Origin: Olsenella sp. oral taxon 807
Lineage (GTDB): Bacteria > Actinomycetota > Coriobacteriia > Coriobacteriales > Atopobiaceae
DNA length: 64,000 nt
NCBI RefSeq assembly: GCF_001189515.2
Contig: NZ_CP012069.2
Span: forward strand, 558,001-622,000
Direction: 5' to 3'
Shown: positions 5,962 through 40,638 of the stretch, piece after piece
Numbering within the stretch: position 1 is the stretch's first letter
Layout of the letters: every line of letters starts with the position of its first letter
Made by a program: the position numbers and the translations under genes
Notes under the pieces: generated by a model
What the model was told of the DNA's origin: nothing
The model's input: only the letters and a program-made list of their open reading frames with translations
Database searches by the model: none

Positions 5962-6576
5962 ATGACTGACACAAGCAGTGCGCACGGGGTGAAGCCGGCA
6001 GAGGGTGAGGATGCCGCAGGCGATGTCAAGCTCACCGAAGGTGGCCTCCCGGGTGAGGGGGGGCTTGTGGCGCCCACAGCTGAGGATGACCCTGCTGCAG
6101 AACTCGCGATGTCCAAGGACAATGGCGCTGGAGACGATGAGGACCTCGACTCGGAGGACTCCCTCACCTTCTCTAACGGCGTCATCGAGAAGATCGTTGC
6201 CATCGCGATGCGTGACGTTCCCGGTGTCATCGGCATGAAGGGCAGTTGGCTCAATCGCGTGCAGGACGTGCTCGGTGCGAGCGACGCGCGCAAGGGTGTC
6301 ACGGTGGAGGTGACGCCAGAGGCTGCGGTGCGGGTCAACATCAGCGTCCTCATCAAGTACGGCTCCTATGCCCCGCAGGTCTTCGAGGACGTCAAGAAGG
6401 CCGTTATCAGGGAGGTCACGGGCATGACGGGACTCTCCATCGCGGGTGTCAACCTGAGGATCGAGGACGTGCTCACGCCCGAGGAGTATGCGCCGGACAA
6501 ACAGCGTGACGCCTTGCCCGAGGCGCAGGGCAACAAGGGCACGCGGAAGACGGGCGCATCCGAGGCGGGGGACTAG
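5962..6576 (+). CDS. asp23: Asp23/Gls24 family envelope stress protein
   Basis: 204 residues. An acidic N-terminal extension (1-65) precedes a classic Asp23 domain (about 66-180) with FSNGVIEKIVAIAMRDVPGV, the VTVEVTPEAAVRVNISVLIKYG strand region and GLSIAGVNLRIEDV. Asp23 proteins are abundant, cytoplasmic, membrane-associated through AmaP, and linked to cell-envelope stress. AAAGGGGACGAGG precedes the ATG. The gene follows amaP and DUF2273 and is only five bases upstream of murT, so the cluster probably links envelope stress sensing to lipid II modification. The long acidic N-terminus is unusual for the family. Confidence 0.93.
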   Translation: MTDTSSAHGVKPAEGEDAAGDVKLTEGGLPGEGGLVAPTAEDDPAAELAMSKDNGAGDDEDLDSEDSLTFSNGVIEKIVAIAMRDVPGVIGMKGSWLNRVQDVLGASDARKGVTVEVTPEAAVRVNISVLIKYGSYAPQVFEDVKKAVIREVTGMTGLSIAGVNLRIEDVLTPEEYAPDKQRDALPEAQGNKGTRKTGASEAGD

Positions 6577-6581
6577 GGCCT

Positions 6582-7958
6582 ATGGGTCTTAGGTCGAGCG
6601 TAGCCATCGCCTCGGGGCGCCTGGCGCACTGGGGGCTCTCGGGCGTGCTTCGCCGCAACGCCTCGCAGCTGCCGGGCAGGATTGCCTTGGCCATCGACCC
6701 CGGTCTTCTGGAGGAGCTCGCACGCAAGCTACGTTGGGGCTCCATCGTCATCTGCGGCACCAACGGCAAGACGACCACCACCAACATCACCGCCGACGCC
6801 CTCGAGGCGAGCGGCAGATCTGTTCTGTGCAACCGGGTGGGTGCCAACATGGCGCCGGGCGTCGTGTCGGCGCTTTTACCCGGACACTCTGCGGACGTGG
6901 CGGTCATCGAGGCCGACGAGCTCTCGACCATTCGCATCCTACCCGGCCTGAGGCCGCGCTACCTCGTGCTTTTGAACCTCTTTCGCGACCAGCTTGATCG
7001 TGCGGGCGAGATCGACCATGTCCAAGATGTCATCGTCGAGGCGCTTGCCGCGTCGCCGCAGACGACGCTTCTGGTCAATGGCGACGATCCGCTCTCGGTC
7101 GCGATAGCGCGCCGTGCCGAGAGGGACAGCAAGACCAAGGTACTCTCCTTTGGCGTCGCCGAGGCACTCGATGCGCCTGCGGGCCGAGTTCCTGAAGCCC
7201 GCTTCTGTCCGGAGTGTGGGGCCGAGCTCTCCTACGACTACCGAAGCTATGCCCAGCTCGGTGCCTTTCGCTGTTCCAGCTGTGACTTCGCGCGTCCTGC
7301 ACTCGACGTTTCGGCTTGTGAGGTTGAGGTGGGGCTTAAGGGTGTCTCCTTCTGCCTGCGCATCGCGTCCCCGTACGCGGGCGGGCCGGTGCCTGGGATC
7401 TCCGCCTGCAGGCTGCGTGCCTCCTTCGGGGGCACGTACATGGTCTACAACCTCCTTGCAGCCGCTGCAGCCTCCCTGCTTGCGGGTGCGACGATGGATG
7501 ACTTTCAGGGTGCGCTCGATGACTATCACCCACAAAACGGTCGACTGCAGCACTTCGTGGTCTCGGGCCGTGAGGTGATCCTCAACCTTGCCAAGAACCC
7601 CACGGGACTCAACCAGAACCTGAGCTTGCTTGCCAAGGACACGCGCAGGAAGGTGGTCTATGTCCTTGTGAACGACAACGCCAACGACGGGACGGACGTC
7701 TCGTGGATCTGGGACGTGGACTTCGAGCGGCTGCGTACTAACGAGGTCGTCCGTATCTTCGCGGGTGGCACTCGTGCCAATGATGTACAGGTTCGTTTCA
7801 AGTATGCTGGCCTGTCCTGCGCCTGTGCGGACAGCGTCTCTGAGGTCGTCGGCAGGCTGGGTGACATCCCGGTCGAATGCCCCCTCTATGTGCTCGCCAA
7901 CTACTCGGCACTCTTTCCCGCGAAGGCTGAGCTCGAGAGGCTGGGGGAAACCCGATGA
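6582..7958 (+). CDS. murT: Lipid II isoglutaminyl synthase, Mur ligase-like subunit
   Basis: 458 residues. It has a Mur ligase ATP-binding loop GTNGKTTTTN (about 59-68), a four-cysteine insertion (CPECGAELSYDYRSY then CSSC, about 209-233) typical of MurT, and the C-terminal DUF1727 region (NPTGLNQNLSLL, VLVNDNANDGTDVSWIWDVD). MurT activates the D-Glu carboxylate of lipid II with ATP; GatD supplies ammonia to make D-isoglutamine, which lowers net charge and supports crosslinking. It overlaps gatD by four bases (ATGA), consistent with the obligate heterodimer. Confidence 0.94.
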   Translation: MGLRSSVAIASGRLAHWGLSGVLRRNASQLPGRIALAIDPGLLEELARKLRWGSIVICGTNGKTTTTNITADALEASGRSVLCNRVGANMAPGVVSALLPGHSADVAVIEADELSTIRILPGLRPRYLVLLNLFRDQLDRAGEIDHVQDVIVEALAASPQTTLLVNGDDPLSVAIARRAERDSKTKVLSFGVAEALDAPAGRVPEARFCPECGAELSYDYRSYAQLGAFRCSSCDFARPALDVSACEVEVGLKGVSFCLRIASPYAGGPVPGISACRLRASFGGTYMVYNLLAAAAASLLAGATMDDFQGALDDYHPQNGRLQHFVVSGREVILNLAKNPTGLNQNLSLLAKDTRRKVVYVLVNDNANDGTDVSWIWDVDFERLRTNEVVRIFAGGTRANDVQVRFKYAGLSCACADSVSEVVGRLGDIPVECPLYVLANYSALFPAKAELERLGETR

Positions 7959-34731: not shown

Positions 34732-35700
34732 CTATGAGGAGAACATGTTCCTTTCGGCAAACTCTGCTTGAACCGTGCGGAACATGAGGTCGACGTCCTC
34801 GAGGCCGAGATGCGTCTCCTTTTGGTTGGCCTTGAGCGTACCGCGTCGCCGTGCCCAGTTCTCGAGCGTGGCGGGCTTCGAGTCGTGGGGGAGGGTCTTG
34901 TATTCGGGATCGATGCGTCGACAGATGTCGCGCGTGTCGATGGGAGTGATTCGACCTGCCTTGCGGGCCTCCGCGTAGCCATCGATCTGCATCATGAACC
35001 AGGAATCCTCGAAGGACGCGTTGTGTGCCATAAAGGGGTACATCTCGAGTGTCGCAAGGATGGCCCGCTGCATCTTGTTGTGCTGGCGCAGTGGCTTCTT
35101 ACCTGCGAGATCGTCCCAGCTGATGTGATGCACGAAGGCAAGGGGAACACCCTTTTCCCGGTAGAGCTCAGGGATACCGCAATAGGAACTAAAGGGATGC
35201 TCGGGCTTTGCCGCCGGCGTAAGCCTCATGAATTCGATGCCTATGTTGATGATGTAGCCACGCGAGGGATCGCGATCGGTTGTCTCTATGTCAATGCCGC
35301 AAACGATGCCCGAGACGGGTGCCTCCACGTAGGCCACGCCAAGATCTTGGCCACTGGGACCTGCGACCTTTATGACCTCCTCCACACTGCGGTGCTGGAG
35401 GGCCGCCACACCACGGATCAGGTCATCACCGGAGAGTTTGCGCGAAAGGGTGGTTGGGGCGACGTCGCGCAGGCGCTCGACTCCATAGCTGTCACAGCTC
35501 GTACGATTGCGATCGGCAAGGTTGCGAACGAGGTCAAACGAAAAGGGCTCCTTGCCCGCAGGCGCGTTCGCCCACGCGTCCATCAGAAGGCCGATGGCCT
35601 CCTCGTTCTTCTCGCGCTCTGCGGTGAGCGTCTCGTCATCCGAGAGAAAGCCGGGAAAGACGAGGGCGTTCGCGTGTTCAAGTGCCTGGGAGAGGTTCAT
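34732..35700 (-). CDS. DEDD-family 3'-5' exonuclease
   Basis: 322 residues. The C-terminal half is an RNase T/DnaQ-like exonuclease: motif I GIDIETTD (DxE), motif II FMAHNASFEDSWF and motif III HLGLEDVDLM (His then Asp). An N-terminal region of about 135 residues has no recognised domain. DnaQ-like proteins of this kind trim DNA or RNA; this is not an obvious PolIII epsilon because of the extra domain and lack of a polymerase partner. Substrate unknown. Start at 35700 is acceptable but no strong ribosome binding site was evaluated. Confidence 0.8.
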   Translation of the reverse strand: MNLSQALEHANALVFPGFLSDDETLTAEREKNEEAIGLLMDAWANAPAGKEPFSFDLVRNLADRNRTSCDSYGVERLRDVAPTTLSRKLSGDDLIRGVAALQHRSVEEVIKVAGPSGQDLGVAYVEAPVSGIVCGIDIETTDRDPSRGYIINIGIEFMRLTPAAKPEHPFSSYCGIPELYREKGVPLAFVHHISWDDLAGKKPLRQHNKMQRAILATLEMYPFMAHNASFEDSWFMMQIDGYAEARKAGRITPIDTRDICRRIDPEYKTLPHDSKPATLENWARRRGTLKANQKETHLGLEDVDLMFRTVQAEFAERNMFSS

Positions 35701-35913: not shown

Positions 35914-35976
35914 AAGGCGTTTGCCCAGTTGGGGCCAAAGCTATTGTGCCTCAGAACCTGCGGGGCATGGGTTAGG
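35914..35976. repeat. Relic of the CCCGCCAG repeat family
   Basis: AGGCGTTTGCCCAGTTGG (35914-35931) and CCTGCGGGGCATGGGTTAGG (from about 35957) match two modules of the 79-bp element at 46.9 kb, but in reversed order and separated by unrelated bases. Terminal CCCGCCAG arms are absent. Confidence 0.65.
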
Positions 35977-36889
35977 CTGCGGTGGTCGCGGTTACGGGAG
36001 CAGCAGTAGCTGCTGTGGGGTCCCAAACATCACCCAAGGCACGGTGGGCGTCGAGGATGGCCTCGCAAAACACGTTGCCGTGGGGTGTCGACGTCCGCCG
36101 TAGCCTACCGTCCTTGTAGGCGATGAGGCGGTGGCGTGGCACAGGGCGCCATGCGTTCCTCTCGTTCTCGCCCCCAAGCGGGAGGGTGGAGAAGATGATG
36201 CCCGATGCGCTCGCAGTGTCCCTCGTATCGCTGCCTACCTTTCCGGTGTTGCCTATACCTGCCTCCTCAGCTGTGACCTCGCGAGCATACAGCGTGACCT
36301 CAGAGGTGTTGGTATGCACGTAGGTGTACGCACCGTCATCCAAGATGAGGTTGAGCTTGTTGTGGTTACCGAGCTGGACTATCGCCCCGGCGAGCACGTC
36401 GAAAGTATCAATGAAGTCAAGCCTCCCACCCTGGCGCGCCGCCGCCTCGTCAATGACATCGATCAGGAAGAGTAGGATGCGCTCCGAGTCGGTCTGGCCC
36501 ACCTCACGCTGCTCGTATCCCCAGAGCAGTCCCTCGTTAAAGAGAATGCCATTGTGGATAAGTGTCCAGCTGCGCCCCGTGACATCAGTCGCCAGGAAGG
36601 GATGGCAGTTGGCGACATCGAGCGTTCCGCAGGTAGCCTTGCGAATGTGTGCCTGTAGGTGACGGGCCTCCATAGGCCTCGACAAGAGCCGTGCTGCGAG
36701 TGCAGACTCGTATGCGGGAAGGGGCTCGCGCCAGAGGGTGACGCCATCGTCGCCCACCATGCCTTCGGCTGGCGTACGAAGAGAAACGCCCCAGCCGTGC
36801 GGATTCGCATGACTGTGTCCAAAAAATTCTGTAAGGTAGCGATTGACACGTACAGGAGTAGCCGAATTGACGGCAAAGAGCTCGCACAT
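35972..36889 (-). CDS. Class II glutamine amidotransferase (YafJ-like)
   Basis: 305 residues. The Ntn-type nucleophile is Cys2 (MCELFAVNS), exposed after removal of Met1, with NPHGWGVSL, ATCGTLDVANCHPF and LIHNGILFNE motifs of the GATase_4/YafJ group, which also includes EgtC. The start at 36889 is fixed by the required Cys2; upstream residues in the same frame would block the active site. The ribosome binding site is weak (only GGA), and a 22-codon cysteine-rich ORF ends 22 bases upstream. That leader suggests expression responds to cysteine and hence a role around gamma-glutamyl or cysteine metabolism, which is inference. Confidence 0.88.
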   Translation of the reverse strand: MCELFAVNSATPVRVNRYLTEFFGHSHANPHGWGVSLRTPAEGMVGDDGVTLWREPLPAYESALAARLLSRPMEARHLQAHIRKATCGTLDVANCHPFLATDVTGRSWTLIHNGILFNEGLLWGYEQREVGQTDSERILLFLIDVIDEAAARQGGRLDFIDTFDVLAGAIVQLGNHNKLNLILDDGAYTYVHTNTSEVTLYAREVTAEEAGIGNTGKVGSDTRDTASASGIIFSTLPLGGENERNAWRPVPRHRLIAYKDGRLRRTSTPHGNVFCEAILDAHRALGDVWDPTAATAAPVTATTAA

Positions 36890-36911: not shown

Positions 36912-36980
36912 TTACAGGACGTAGGCACGTTCGCACATCCGACAACAGCATGTGTCACTGCTTATCATTGCGAATTGCAT
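36912..36980 (-). CDS. Cysteine-rich leader peptide upstream of class II amidotransferase
   Basis: 22-residue ORF beginning MQFAMISSDT, then three consecutive Cys (residues 11-13), Arg14, Met15 and Cys16, ending AYVL. Four of 22 residues are cysteine, three of them adjacent. GAAGGGAAGTGG lies about four bases upstream of the ATG, a better ribosome binding site than that of the following gene, whose ATG lies 22 bases past the TAA. The arrangement suggests that ribosome stalling at Cys codons when Cys-tRNA is scarce changes initiation at the amidotransferase. It is too short for ordinary gene callers. Confidence 0.7.
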   Translation of the reverse strand: MQFAMISSDTCCCRMCERAYVL

Positions 36981-37317
36981 ACGTCCACTTCCCTTCTACA
37001 AACGCCGCGCACCATTGAGCTTACTTCATCTGACGCGCTACGATTCTATCCATATGTATCTATCAATAAGCCGTAAAGCACATTACGTCTTCGTTACATT
37101 TTGTCGAGTAGACGCGTAGACGCCCCTACGTTGCCCGAAGGCTACAGGAGCCTCAAGGAACTCTCCCACGCTGGCATGCAGCCAATCCAGCGCTGGCATG
37201 CAGTAAAAAGGGGTAGCCCATCAAGGCCACCATGCGTCTTGGAGCGCCTTAGTGGACTGACGGGCTACCCGGTTCCCATGACCTGACGTGGGGTCGAAGG
37301 ACGTTTGTCCTTTGTCT
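36981..37317. other. Gap between pfkA and the amidotransferase leader
   Basis: It holds the pfkA terminator, a 12-bp direct repeat (GCTGGCATGCAG at 37170-37181 and 37192-37203) and, on the minus strand, TAGAAT (37043-37048) as a possible -10 for the leader-amidotransferase unit, about 60 bases before the leader ATG. No -35 of good quality was seen. Confidence 0.5.
37206..37270 (-). terminator. Rho-independent terminator of pfkA
   Basis: Read on the minus strand, GGGTAGCCCGTCA pairs with TGATGGGCTACCC (one G-U) across a loop of 34 bases, followed by CTTTTT. Both arms and the T-run are clear; the long loop is unusual. Confidence 0.8.
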
Positions 37318-38671: not shown

Positions 38672-38694
38672 GCTGTTAATTCCCACCATGACAC

Positions 38695-38783: not shown

Positions 38784-38876
38784 ATGCGTGAACCAATGAT
38801 GGCATTGCAGGGTTGCACATGTTGTCGCGAGAAGTTCTTGCCCCTCTTGTCCTGTGTGGAGGGTGCCTGTCGCTGA
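38784..38876 (+). CDS. Cysteine-rich leader peptide of cysK
   Basis: 30-residue ORF starting MREPMMALQ with Cys at residues 11, 13, 14, 24 and 29, then Arg and TGA. ATGAGGAGGGG precedes the ATG, one of the strongest Shine-Dalgarno matches in the window. It lies between a consensus promoter and a compact terminator, with cysK beginning 118 bases after the terminator's T-run. This is the layout of a transcription attenuator that reads Cys-tRNA supply: ribosomes stalled on the Cys codons would permit read-through into cysteine synthesis genes. Cysteine-rich short ORFs acting as cysteine-responsive attenuators are known in mycobacteria. Confidence 0.78.
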   Translation: MREPMMALQGCTCCREKFLPLLSCVEGACR

Positions 38877-38932
38877 CGCGCGAAGTCGCTGTCCGTGTTC
38901 GGGACACCCATCAAAAACAGACAGTCGAGAGG

Positions 38933-38954
38933 GGACGCGTGAGCGTCCTTTTTT
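38933..38954 (+). terminator. Attenuator terminator between the leader and cysK
   Basis: GGACGC (38933-38938), GTGA loop, GCGTCC (38943-38948), then six T's (38949-38954). Upstream ACGCG (38876-38880), just past the leader stop, could pair with CGCGT (38936-38940) to form a competing antiterminator; the wider alternative fold was not computed. Confidence 0.85.
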
Positions 38955-39072: not shown

Positions 39073-39984
39073 ATGAGATACGCACATACAATTGAGGCAA
39101 TCATCGGATCAACCCCACTTATCGATCTCTCTGCCATTGCGGGTGGCAAGGCTACCATCCTTGGAAAATACGAGGCAAGCAATCCTGGGGGTTCGGTGAA
39201 GGACCGCATCGTGCTCACCATGCTGGACGCTGCAGAGGCCGACGGCAGCCTCATGCCTGGTGGCACCGTGATCGAGCCTACATCTGGAAACACCGGTGTC
39301 GGTCTGGCGATGCTCGCAGCGAGGCGAGGGTACAAGGCAGTTCTCGTTATGCCCGAGACCATGTCCGTCGAGCGTCGCAAGCTTGCGGCGAGCTACGGGG
39401 CACAGATTGTCCTTACGCCAGGCGGCGAGGGCATGAGCGGTGCCGTCAGGCGCGCTGACGAGCTGAGGGACGAGACACCCGGCGCCATCGTTGTGGGTCA
39501 GTTCGTGAATCCGGCAAACCCACAGGCGCACTACGAGATGACCGGTCCCGAGATCTGGGCCGACACCGAGGGTGACGTGGACGTCCTCGTTGCTGGCGTG
39601 GGCACGGGCGGTACCATCTCCGGTGCAGGGAGATTCCTCAAGGAGAAGAGGCCCTCCGTTCGCGCCATCGCCGTCGAGCCCTCCGAGAGTCAGGTGCTGG
39701 CCGGCAAGCCCGCTGGGGCTCATCGCATCCAGGGCATCGGTGCGGGATTTGTTCCTGTGACCTATGATGCCAGTGTGGTAGACGAGGTCGTGCCCGTGAC
39801 CTCCGAGCGTGCCATAGCCATGAGGCGACGCCTTGCAGAGGAGGTGGGTCTGCTCGTGGGCATCAGCTCGGGCGCTGCAGTCGAGGTTGCGAGGGTGTTG
39901 GCCGAGCGCCTCGACTACGCTGACACGACGATAGTGGCTGTGCTCCCCGACACCGGAGAGCGCTACCTCTCGATGGGGCTGTAG
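39073..39984 (+). CDS. cysK: Cysteine synthase (O-acetylserine sulfhydrylase)
   Basis: 303 residues. The PLP lysine is Lys43 in NPGGSVKDR; TSGNTGVGLAMLA and GTGGTISGAGRFLKE bind the cofactor phosphate and substrate. It makes cysteine from O-acetylserine and sulfide. The ATG at 39073 follows GGAGG; the open frame reaches upstream through the leader and terminator, which would be a wrong start. The cysE start follows within 10 bases of its stop, so the two enzymes of cysteine synthesis form one unit. Confidence 0.95.
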   Translation: MRYAHTIEAIIGSTPLIDLSAIAGGKATILGKYEASNPGGSVKDRIVLTMLDAAEADGSLMPGGTVIEPTSGNTGVGLAMLAARRGYKAVLVMPETMSVERRKLAASYGAQIVLTPGGEGMSGAVRRADELRDETPGAIVVGQFVNPANPQAHYEMTGPEIWADTEGDVDVLVAGVGTGGTISGAGRFLKEKRPSVRAIAVEPSESQVLAGKPAGAHRIQGIGAGFVPVTYDASVVDEVVPVTSERAIAMRRRLAEEVGLLVGISSGAAVEVARVLAERLDYADTTIVAVLPDTGERYLSMGL

Positions 39985-39993
39985 GTGAGTTTG

Positions 39994-40638
39994 ATGCCTG
40001 CGATGATGGGCGTGGTGTCACCGCCCGAGAGGCACCCTCCTTTGTGGTCACGAGCGTGGGAAGACGTGCGGGCGGTGCTCAGGCGCGATCCGAGTGCGAG
40101 CTCTGCGCTTGACGTCGTACTCTTTGCGACGGGTCTCCACGTCGTTTGGGCCTACCGGTGGCAGCACTGGCTCTGGGAAAGGGGCCTGCGCCGTCTCGCG
40201 ATCCTCTTTGCGCAGCGCACGCGTAGGCGCTATGGGATTGACATTCATCCGGCGGCCACCATCGGAAGGCGCTTTGTTATTGACCACGGCTTTGGTCTCG
40301 TGATAGGACAGACGTCTGTCATCGGTGACGATTGCATGGTCTATCAGGGAGTCACCCTCGGCATGACCGGCCATCACGGCGGCAGGCGCCACCCGACGCT
40401 CGGTGACGACGTGATGGTGGGCGCAGGGGCCATCGTCCTGGGCGATATTCATGTCGGCAGCCACAGCAAGGTTGGCGCAGGCGCGGTCGTGATCCACGAC
40501 GTGCCCGAGGGCGTGACGGTAGCGGGCGTTCCCGCGCGCGTCATAGGCGATCGCTGTCGTGGGGGGTGCTGCGAACTGTCGCTCGTGCCGCCCGTCAATA
40601 CGGATAGCGAGGATGTGCGCTGGTCCTGCGCGCTATAG
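39994..40638 (+). CDS. cysE: Serine O-acetyltransferase
   Basis: About 214 residues. A helical N-terminal part precedes a left-handed beta helix (hexapeptide repeats) with IDIHPAATIGRRFVIDHG, QGVTLGMTGHHGG and GAGAIVLGDIHVGSHSKVGAG. It resembles the short EpsC type that acetylates serine to supply CysK. The C-terminal tail after the helix is short and ends without the Ile that docks into CysK in many species. ATG 39994 has AGGTGAG just upstream; GTG 39985 is an alternative start. Confidence 0.92.
   Translation: MPAMMGVVSPPERHPPLWSRAWEDVRAVLRRDPSASSALDVVLFATGLHVVWAYRWQHWLWERGLRRLAILFAQRTRRRYGIDIHPAATIGRRFVIDHGFGLVIGQTSVIGDDCMVYQGVTLGMTGHHGGRRHPTLGDDVMVGAGAIVLGDIHVGSHSKVGAGAVVIHDVPEGVTVAGVPARVIGDRCRGGCCELSLVPPVNTDSEDVRWSCAL

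Follow-up and report, generated by a model that had tools for sequence, protein, structure and literature searches.

A candidate cysteine-responsive leader peptide upstream of an EgtC/YafJ-like amidotransferase gene in Olsenella and other Atopobiaceae

A short Cys-rich open reading frame (ORF) that lies directly upstream of a class II glutamine amidotransferase gene in Olsenella sp. oral taxon 807 is likely, with a probability that we put at roughly 70%, to encode a cysteine-responsive leader peptide that controls the amidotransferase. Its translation, its response to cysteine and its mode of control are all deduced here from sequence, using a 64-kb stretch of DNA (the window) together with the corresponding regions of related genomes. 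The elements at this locus are as follows.

36912..36980, minus strand: Cys-rich leader ORF of 22 codons, MQFAMISSDTCCCRMCERAYVL (from translation and from counterparts upstream of orthologues)
36942..36950, minus strand: consecutive Cys codons 11-13 of the leader, TGC TGT TGT (from translation)
36935-36933, minus strand: Cys codon 16 of the leader, TGC (from translation)
36985..36995, minus strand: leader Shine-Dalgarno (SD) region, AAGGGAAGTGG (from sequence)
35972..36889, minus strand: class II glutamine amidotransferase gene, GATase_4, EgtC/YafJ-like Ntn hydrolase, protein start MCELFAVNSA
37212..37231, minus strand: intrinsic terminator after pfkA (from a terminator scan)

Translation of the minus-strand ORF gives MQFAMISSDTCCCRMCERAYVL followed by a stop, in agreement with the original prediction of a short frame with three consecutive Cys codons plus one more, and the predicted 22-nt gap is also found, with the leader stop ending at 36912 and the amidotransferase ATG located at 36889. 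The leader SD, AAGGGAAGTGG, had been called strong and is instead graded as moderate. The amidotransferase gene does have the poor ribosome binding site that was ascribed to it, its SD consisting only of GGA (GATCGGACTTCCCATG) six bases 5' of the ATG. The amidotransferase gene is probably a transcription unit of its own, apart from pfkA, because the intrinsic terminator at 37212..37231 on the minus strand follows pfkA. A search against the covariance models of Rfam 15 gave no match to the leader region and one sub-threshold match elsewhere. We also observed that positions 36938-36931 (minus strand) within the leader carry ATGTGCGA, the same octamer with which the amidotransferase gene begins (36889-36882, minus strand), and that it encodes MCE in both places. 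This repeat is possibly due to chance, or possibly an internal or decoy start.

Homologues of the amidotransferase were found in 41 genomes among 120 relatives and in 49 among 140 family genomes, and the DNA ahead of each homologue was read on the strand of that gene. By strict criteria, five further Atopobiaceae species, relatives from gut and mouth, exhibit an SD-led, Cys-clustered upstream ORF (uORF) before the orthologue, with starts that range from -81 to -111 as listed here.

Olsenella porci, start -81: leader MARLAMCCRCTHAFVY
O. profusa and its near relative G004, start -88: leader MGMHRRICCTCC..., with a frame that continues into the gene
Coriobacteriales SUG1433, start -88: leader MSIATNRMCCCRAFC
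Uncultured Olsenella RUG004, start -84: leader MAFVHTCCCPCSRASR
Parafannyhessea umbonata, start -111: leader MTCTCCSRASRRD...

These leaders keep the Cys cluster at a similar position, but the peptide is otherwise not conserved in sequence or in length, with leaders spanning 15 to ~49 codons, differing in Cys spacing and sharing no sequence outside the cluster. Most leader-bearing orthologues have a gap of 9-47 nt between leader and gene, and the O. profusa leader overlaps the gene. Weaker uORFs in which the Cys codons are more dispersed are present in Coriobacteriaceae COR2 and Olsenella RGIG8828. Conservation upstream of orthologues extends to five further species, so that the outcome named in the original prediction as refuting it, the absence of Cys-rich ORFs before orthologues, is not what was observed. 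The leader is not universal, as none is present in the upstream regions examined from O. massiliensis, RUG161, O. intestinalis, the Tractidigestivibacter-type clade and the more distant homologues. In the protein tree the leader-bearing genes form three branches of one clade, and for this reason the leader appears to have been retained over ~50% protein divergence, a pattern consistent with an old leader that has been lost several times. G054, which is closely related to P. umbonata, shows one such loss. Here an IS481-type transposase gene (6480-7454, minus strand) occupies the place of the leader, and the two sequences become alike again from about the leader stop onward. By this comparison, G054 is a natural leader deletion.

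The chance occurrence of such frames was also assessed. Under a rule that asks for an ATG-started ORF of 6-45 codons, an SD core, and a stretch of seven residues with three or more Cys, the whole window contains three qualifying ORFs on both strands, specifically this leader, a second one upstream of cysK (described below) and a third at 49865-49785 that is antisense within a substrate-binding-protein gene. Upstream regions of homologues contain strict-rule Cys-clustered SD-led uORFs in 6 of 51 cases, as compared with a mean of 0.027 and a maximum of 2 in 300 dinucleotide shuffles of these regions. When the discovery locus is excluded the count is 5 of 50, giving a Poisson P of ~1e-10 relative to the shuffles and a P of 1.5e-7 relative to the density in real neighbouring DNA, both values being indicative only as the sequences are related. 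There is also synonymous TGC/TGT variation inside the Cys clusters of the leaders. Specifically, TGT accounts for 19 of 30 Cys codons in the leaders, as against TGC for all 37 in the amidotransferase genes behind them (Fisher, 2e-9). The difference is slight (p = 0.048) when the leaders are compared with genes near the window (TGT in 13 of 35), and intergenic composition may explain part of the TGT excess.

The second Cys-rich leader lies on the opposite strand, ahead of genes for cysteine synthesis, in the following arrangement.

38676..38690, plus strand: left half of a palindromic operator-like motif, TTAATTCCCACCATG, before cysK
38784..38876, plus strand: Cys-rich leader ahead of cysK, MREPMMALQGCTCCREKFLPLLSCVEGACR (SD GAGGAGGGG)
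38927..38954, plus strand: intrinsic terminator that separates cysK from its leader, GAGAGGGGACGC-GTGA-GCGTCC-TTTTTT
39073..39984, plus strand: cysK, O-acetylserine sulfhydrylase, PALP family
39985..40638, plus strand: cysE-like serine acetyltransferase with hexapeptide repeats

The region spanning the cysK leader and terminator is predicted to fold better than its shuffles (z = -3.4), and the modelled probability of the terminator is ~0.4 with a ribosome at the Cys cluster and ~0.9 with a ribosome further on. A cysK leader followed by a hairpin and T6 is seen in four species (that of the window, G027, O. profusa with its near relative, and O. massiliensis), and three more genomes have cysK Cys leaders that lack a T run. 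In silico, a stall-dependent switch is clear for the window's cysK only, as a simple masking model gave no switch for the Cys cluster of the G027 and O. profusa cysK leaders. By its architecture, the cysK leader with its terminator is a putative cysteine attenuator of the classical kind. Elsewhere in this genome, the PF01053 genes and the cysK paralogue were examined and gave no Cys leader. Genome-wide pattern searches for more Cys leaders with in-frame checks returned, among the matches listed, almost exclusively positions inside genes. As a separate observation, one SD-led ORF of O. massiliensis, MGSLKTLVGSPSCCCRETTPSLYGSHATIPVLTCHAR, is located between genes (1512-1625 on the pattern strand) and precedes a gene whose product looks by eye like an MraY/WecA-like membrane glycosyl-phosphate transferase. 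This ORF is possibly another Cys leader, or chance.

There are several ties between cysK and the amidotransferase gene. In the window cysK is 2.2 kb from the amidotransferase gene with pfkA between them, and the pair is directly divergent in O. profusa and G004. Furthermore, a palindromic motif (TTAATTCCYACC-N-, with a GGTGGGAATTA-like second half) precedes cysK in most genomes of the family, and it also precedes several of the amidotransferase genes. Using an operator matrix trained on cysK promoters, with the shared divergent region left out, we obtained matches upstream of the amidotransferase gene in 5 of 8 leader-bearing homologues and in 2 of 42 other homologues (p = 5e-4). The window's own amidotransferase promoter has no shared operator by this cysK-trained matrix. 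The motif resembles a CymR/Rrf2-type operator, and its regulator is perhaps of that type. The original prediction saw no obvious pathway for the amidotransferase, a view that is improved upon by the nearby cysK-cysE pair with its own leader and terminator, by the divergent O. profusa arrangement and by the operator shared among several orthologues.

The amidotransferase is a 305-aa protein that matches Pfam GATase_4 (PF13230) and has PDB relatives 1TE5 and 3MDN. Its AlphaFold model (pLDDT 82) has EgtC (4ZFK) as best structural match, with a TM-score of 0.76 when normalised by the target and 18% identity. The catalytic Cys2 and the motifs HIR, HNG and TDSE are conserved among homologues. In the class II amidotransferase fold these motifs hold the gamma-glutamyl group. 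Family score, N-terminal Cys, motifs and fold all agree that this is a class II glutamine amidotransferase of the Ntn hydrolase type. We rejected the assignment as an EgtC orthologue, as the TIGR03442 score is 34 bits against a cut-off of 218.65 and the genome has no EgtD (PF10017). EgtC cleaves a gamma-glutamyl-cysteinyl sulfoxide. The window's genome likewise gave no match to gamma-glutamyltranspeptidase (GGT), ChaC or Glu-Cys ligase (PF04262, the E. coli-type GshA). The enzyme probably acts as a gamma-glutamyl hydrolase and contributes to freeing cysteine, or the sulfur of cysteine, from gamma-glutamyl-cysteinyl compounds, with glutamine hydrolysis being equally compatible with the conserved pocket. 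By analogy with Dug3, imported gamma-glutamyl compounds as a cysteine source would fit a genome that lacks EgtD, GGT, ChaC and GshA. In several genomes the amidotransferase is followed, in synteny, by a 322-aa protein (in the window at 34732-35700, minus strand) that has no Pfam match and contains, by eye, an exonuclease-like DIETT motif.

In regards to mechanism, a scarcity of charged tRNA-Cys would cause a ribosome to stall at Cys codons 11-13, and with the stalled ribosome on the leader, amidotransferase expression would rise. This control most likely acts on translation of the amidotransferase, because the gap that separates leader and gene is only 22 nt long and contains no minus-strand intrinsic terminator. 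In the model that we propose, the SD and start region of the leader would pair with the start region of the gene and so mask the amidotransferase start, which would be freed when one ribosome stalls on the leader and a second one queues at the leader start. The sequence ACTTCCC at 36896-36890, directly 5' of the amidotransferase ATG, is the complement of GGGAAGT at 36993-36987, and pairing between leader start and gene start is predicted for each of the nine leader-bearing sequences (GGGAAGU with ACUUCCC in the case of the window). As a group, this pairing is above that of shuffled leader starts, but it only just exceeds that of leader starts swapped between species (p = 0.04), with the duplex energy being not significant. 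The fold of the leader by itself is no better than that of shuffles. With one ribosome stalled at the Cys cluster and another queued, the modelled cost of opening the window's gene start falls from 16.6 to 10.0 kcal/mol, a change to be read with the fact that masking tends to lower the cost anyway. Start-site pairing is thus our leading model, offered as an unproven suggestion from modelling.

The main rival to translational control is that the leader acts through Rho-dependent or other transcription termination, in which case the RNA beyond the leader stop would be left untranslated when no ribosome stalls, and Rho would be able to terminate there. The cysK leader in the window has an intrinsic terminator, indicating that transcriptional attenuation is probably present in this genome, and Rho has been proposed for the terminator-less mycobacterial Cys leaders (PMC1262725). 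However, the minus strand has no terminator-like site between leader and gene, and gaps of 9-47 nt in most orthologues, along with the overlap in O. profusa, leave scant room for a Rho site. We consequently regard termination as unlikely at the amidotransferase. It is less probable still that the ORF is a functionless chance Cys-rich frame, with the uORFs at orthologues reflecting coincidence or residual homology. Peptide sequence and length do vary, many orthologues have no leader and spurious ORFs are abundant in high-GC DNA, yet the uORFs are enriched over both dinucleotide shuffles and real neighbouring DNA, they start at similar positions (-81 to -111), and they keep their Cys clusters as the flanking residues change. 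The same arrangement at cysK, and the association of leader presence with the cysK-type operator, also argue against chance.

The CCCxxC-like spacing in the ORF would suit a small Cys-rich peptide with a function of its own, such as binding metals or thiols, instead of an action in cis, as such spacing is able to bind metals. This explanation is highly improbable given frames of 15 to ~49 codons that differ in Cys spacing and have nothing in common outside the cluster, and given that the O. profusa frame continues into the gene. Finally, the frame is open from an in-frame upstream GTG (36958), which would make the region an N-terminal extension of a 328-aa amidotransferase. We rejected this reading as scarcely credible, since the MCEL start is invariant in 12 of 12 aligned homologues, the solved relative 1TE5 likewise begins with MCEL, and the catalytic Cys must come right after the initiator Met.

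The preferred reading, a cysteine-responsive leader, matters as leader peptides indicate what a gene is for. The Cys leader, the proximity of cysK-cysE and the operator in relatives would together assign the orphan EgtC/YafJ-like amidotransferase to cysteine supply, and the substrate of the enzyme thereby becomes directly testable. The leader would also extend control at the level of cysteine tRNA to the Coriobacteriia, and the cysK attenuator provides a ready positive control within the same 2.5 kb. A broader proposal, which as a whole we consider tentative and rather doubtful, is that the amidotransferase is a gamma-glutamyl-cysteine/glutathione amidohydrolase functioning as a cysteine-salvage enzyme, that it is governed at two levels, through a cysteine operator in common with cysK and through a translational Cys-codon leader, and that it belongs to a small cysteine regulon of Atopobiaceae that mixes transcriptional (cysK) with translational attenuation. 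This salvage role is to be seen against the background of anaerobes that, to the extent that the window's genome indicates, lack GGT, ChaC and an E. coli-type GshA.

Among known systems, the closest solved fold to the amidotransferase model is that of EgtC (PDB 4ZFJ/4ZFK/4ZFL), the Ntn hydrolase of the ergothioneine pathway. EgtC is a gamma-glutamyl hydrolase with a Cys2 nucleophile, a residue that the amidotransferase shares, and the two differ in that identity is only 18-19%, TIGR03442 is below its cut-off and the genome is without EgtD. A functional analogy can be proposed with yeast Dug3, a class II amidotransferase that obtains cysteine from glutathione. The yeast (Dug2p-Dug3p)2 complex is reportedly a GATase acting on glutathione (Kaur et al. 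2012).

On the regulatory side, short polycysteine ORFs of mycobacteria are described as cysteine-responsive attenuators (Canestrari et al. 2020, as cited in PMC9094748 and PMC13236596). As portrayed in those citing papers, they resemble the leaders analysed here in being short uORFs with a tract of Cys codons just 5' of the controlled gene, and in occurring at several loci per genome, each with its own leader and with targets in cysteine metabolism. The mycobacterial ORFs are leaderless, whereas the Atopobiaceae leaders have an SD, and they differ as well in lineage (here Atopobiaceae) and in target (here an EgtC/YafJ-like amidotransferase). Candidate Cys leaders have also been predicted for the cys operons of Mycobacterium and Propionibacterium acnes and for cbs of Bifidobacterium longum (PMC1262725). 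These are likewise short ORFs with runs of Cys codons before cysteine genes of Actinobacteria, and have no obvious terminator. They involve different genes and a different class, and in contrast to them the Olsenella cysK leaders do have intrinsic terminators. Furthermore, their Cys run is near the stop codon, whereas that of the window's leader is mid-peptide. In the literature that we searched there is no description of a Cys leader for an amidotransferase of the EgtC/YafJ-like family, as the original prediction had supposed, nor of one in the Coriobacteriia. Thus, Cys-codon leaders as such are already known in mycobacteria and other Actinobacteria, and what is new here is the target and the lineage.
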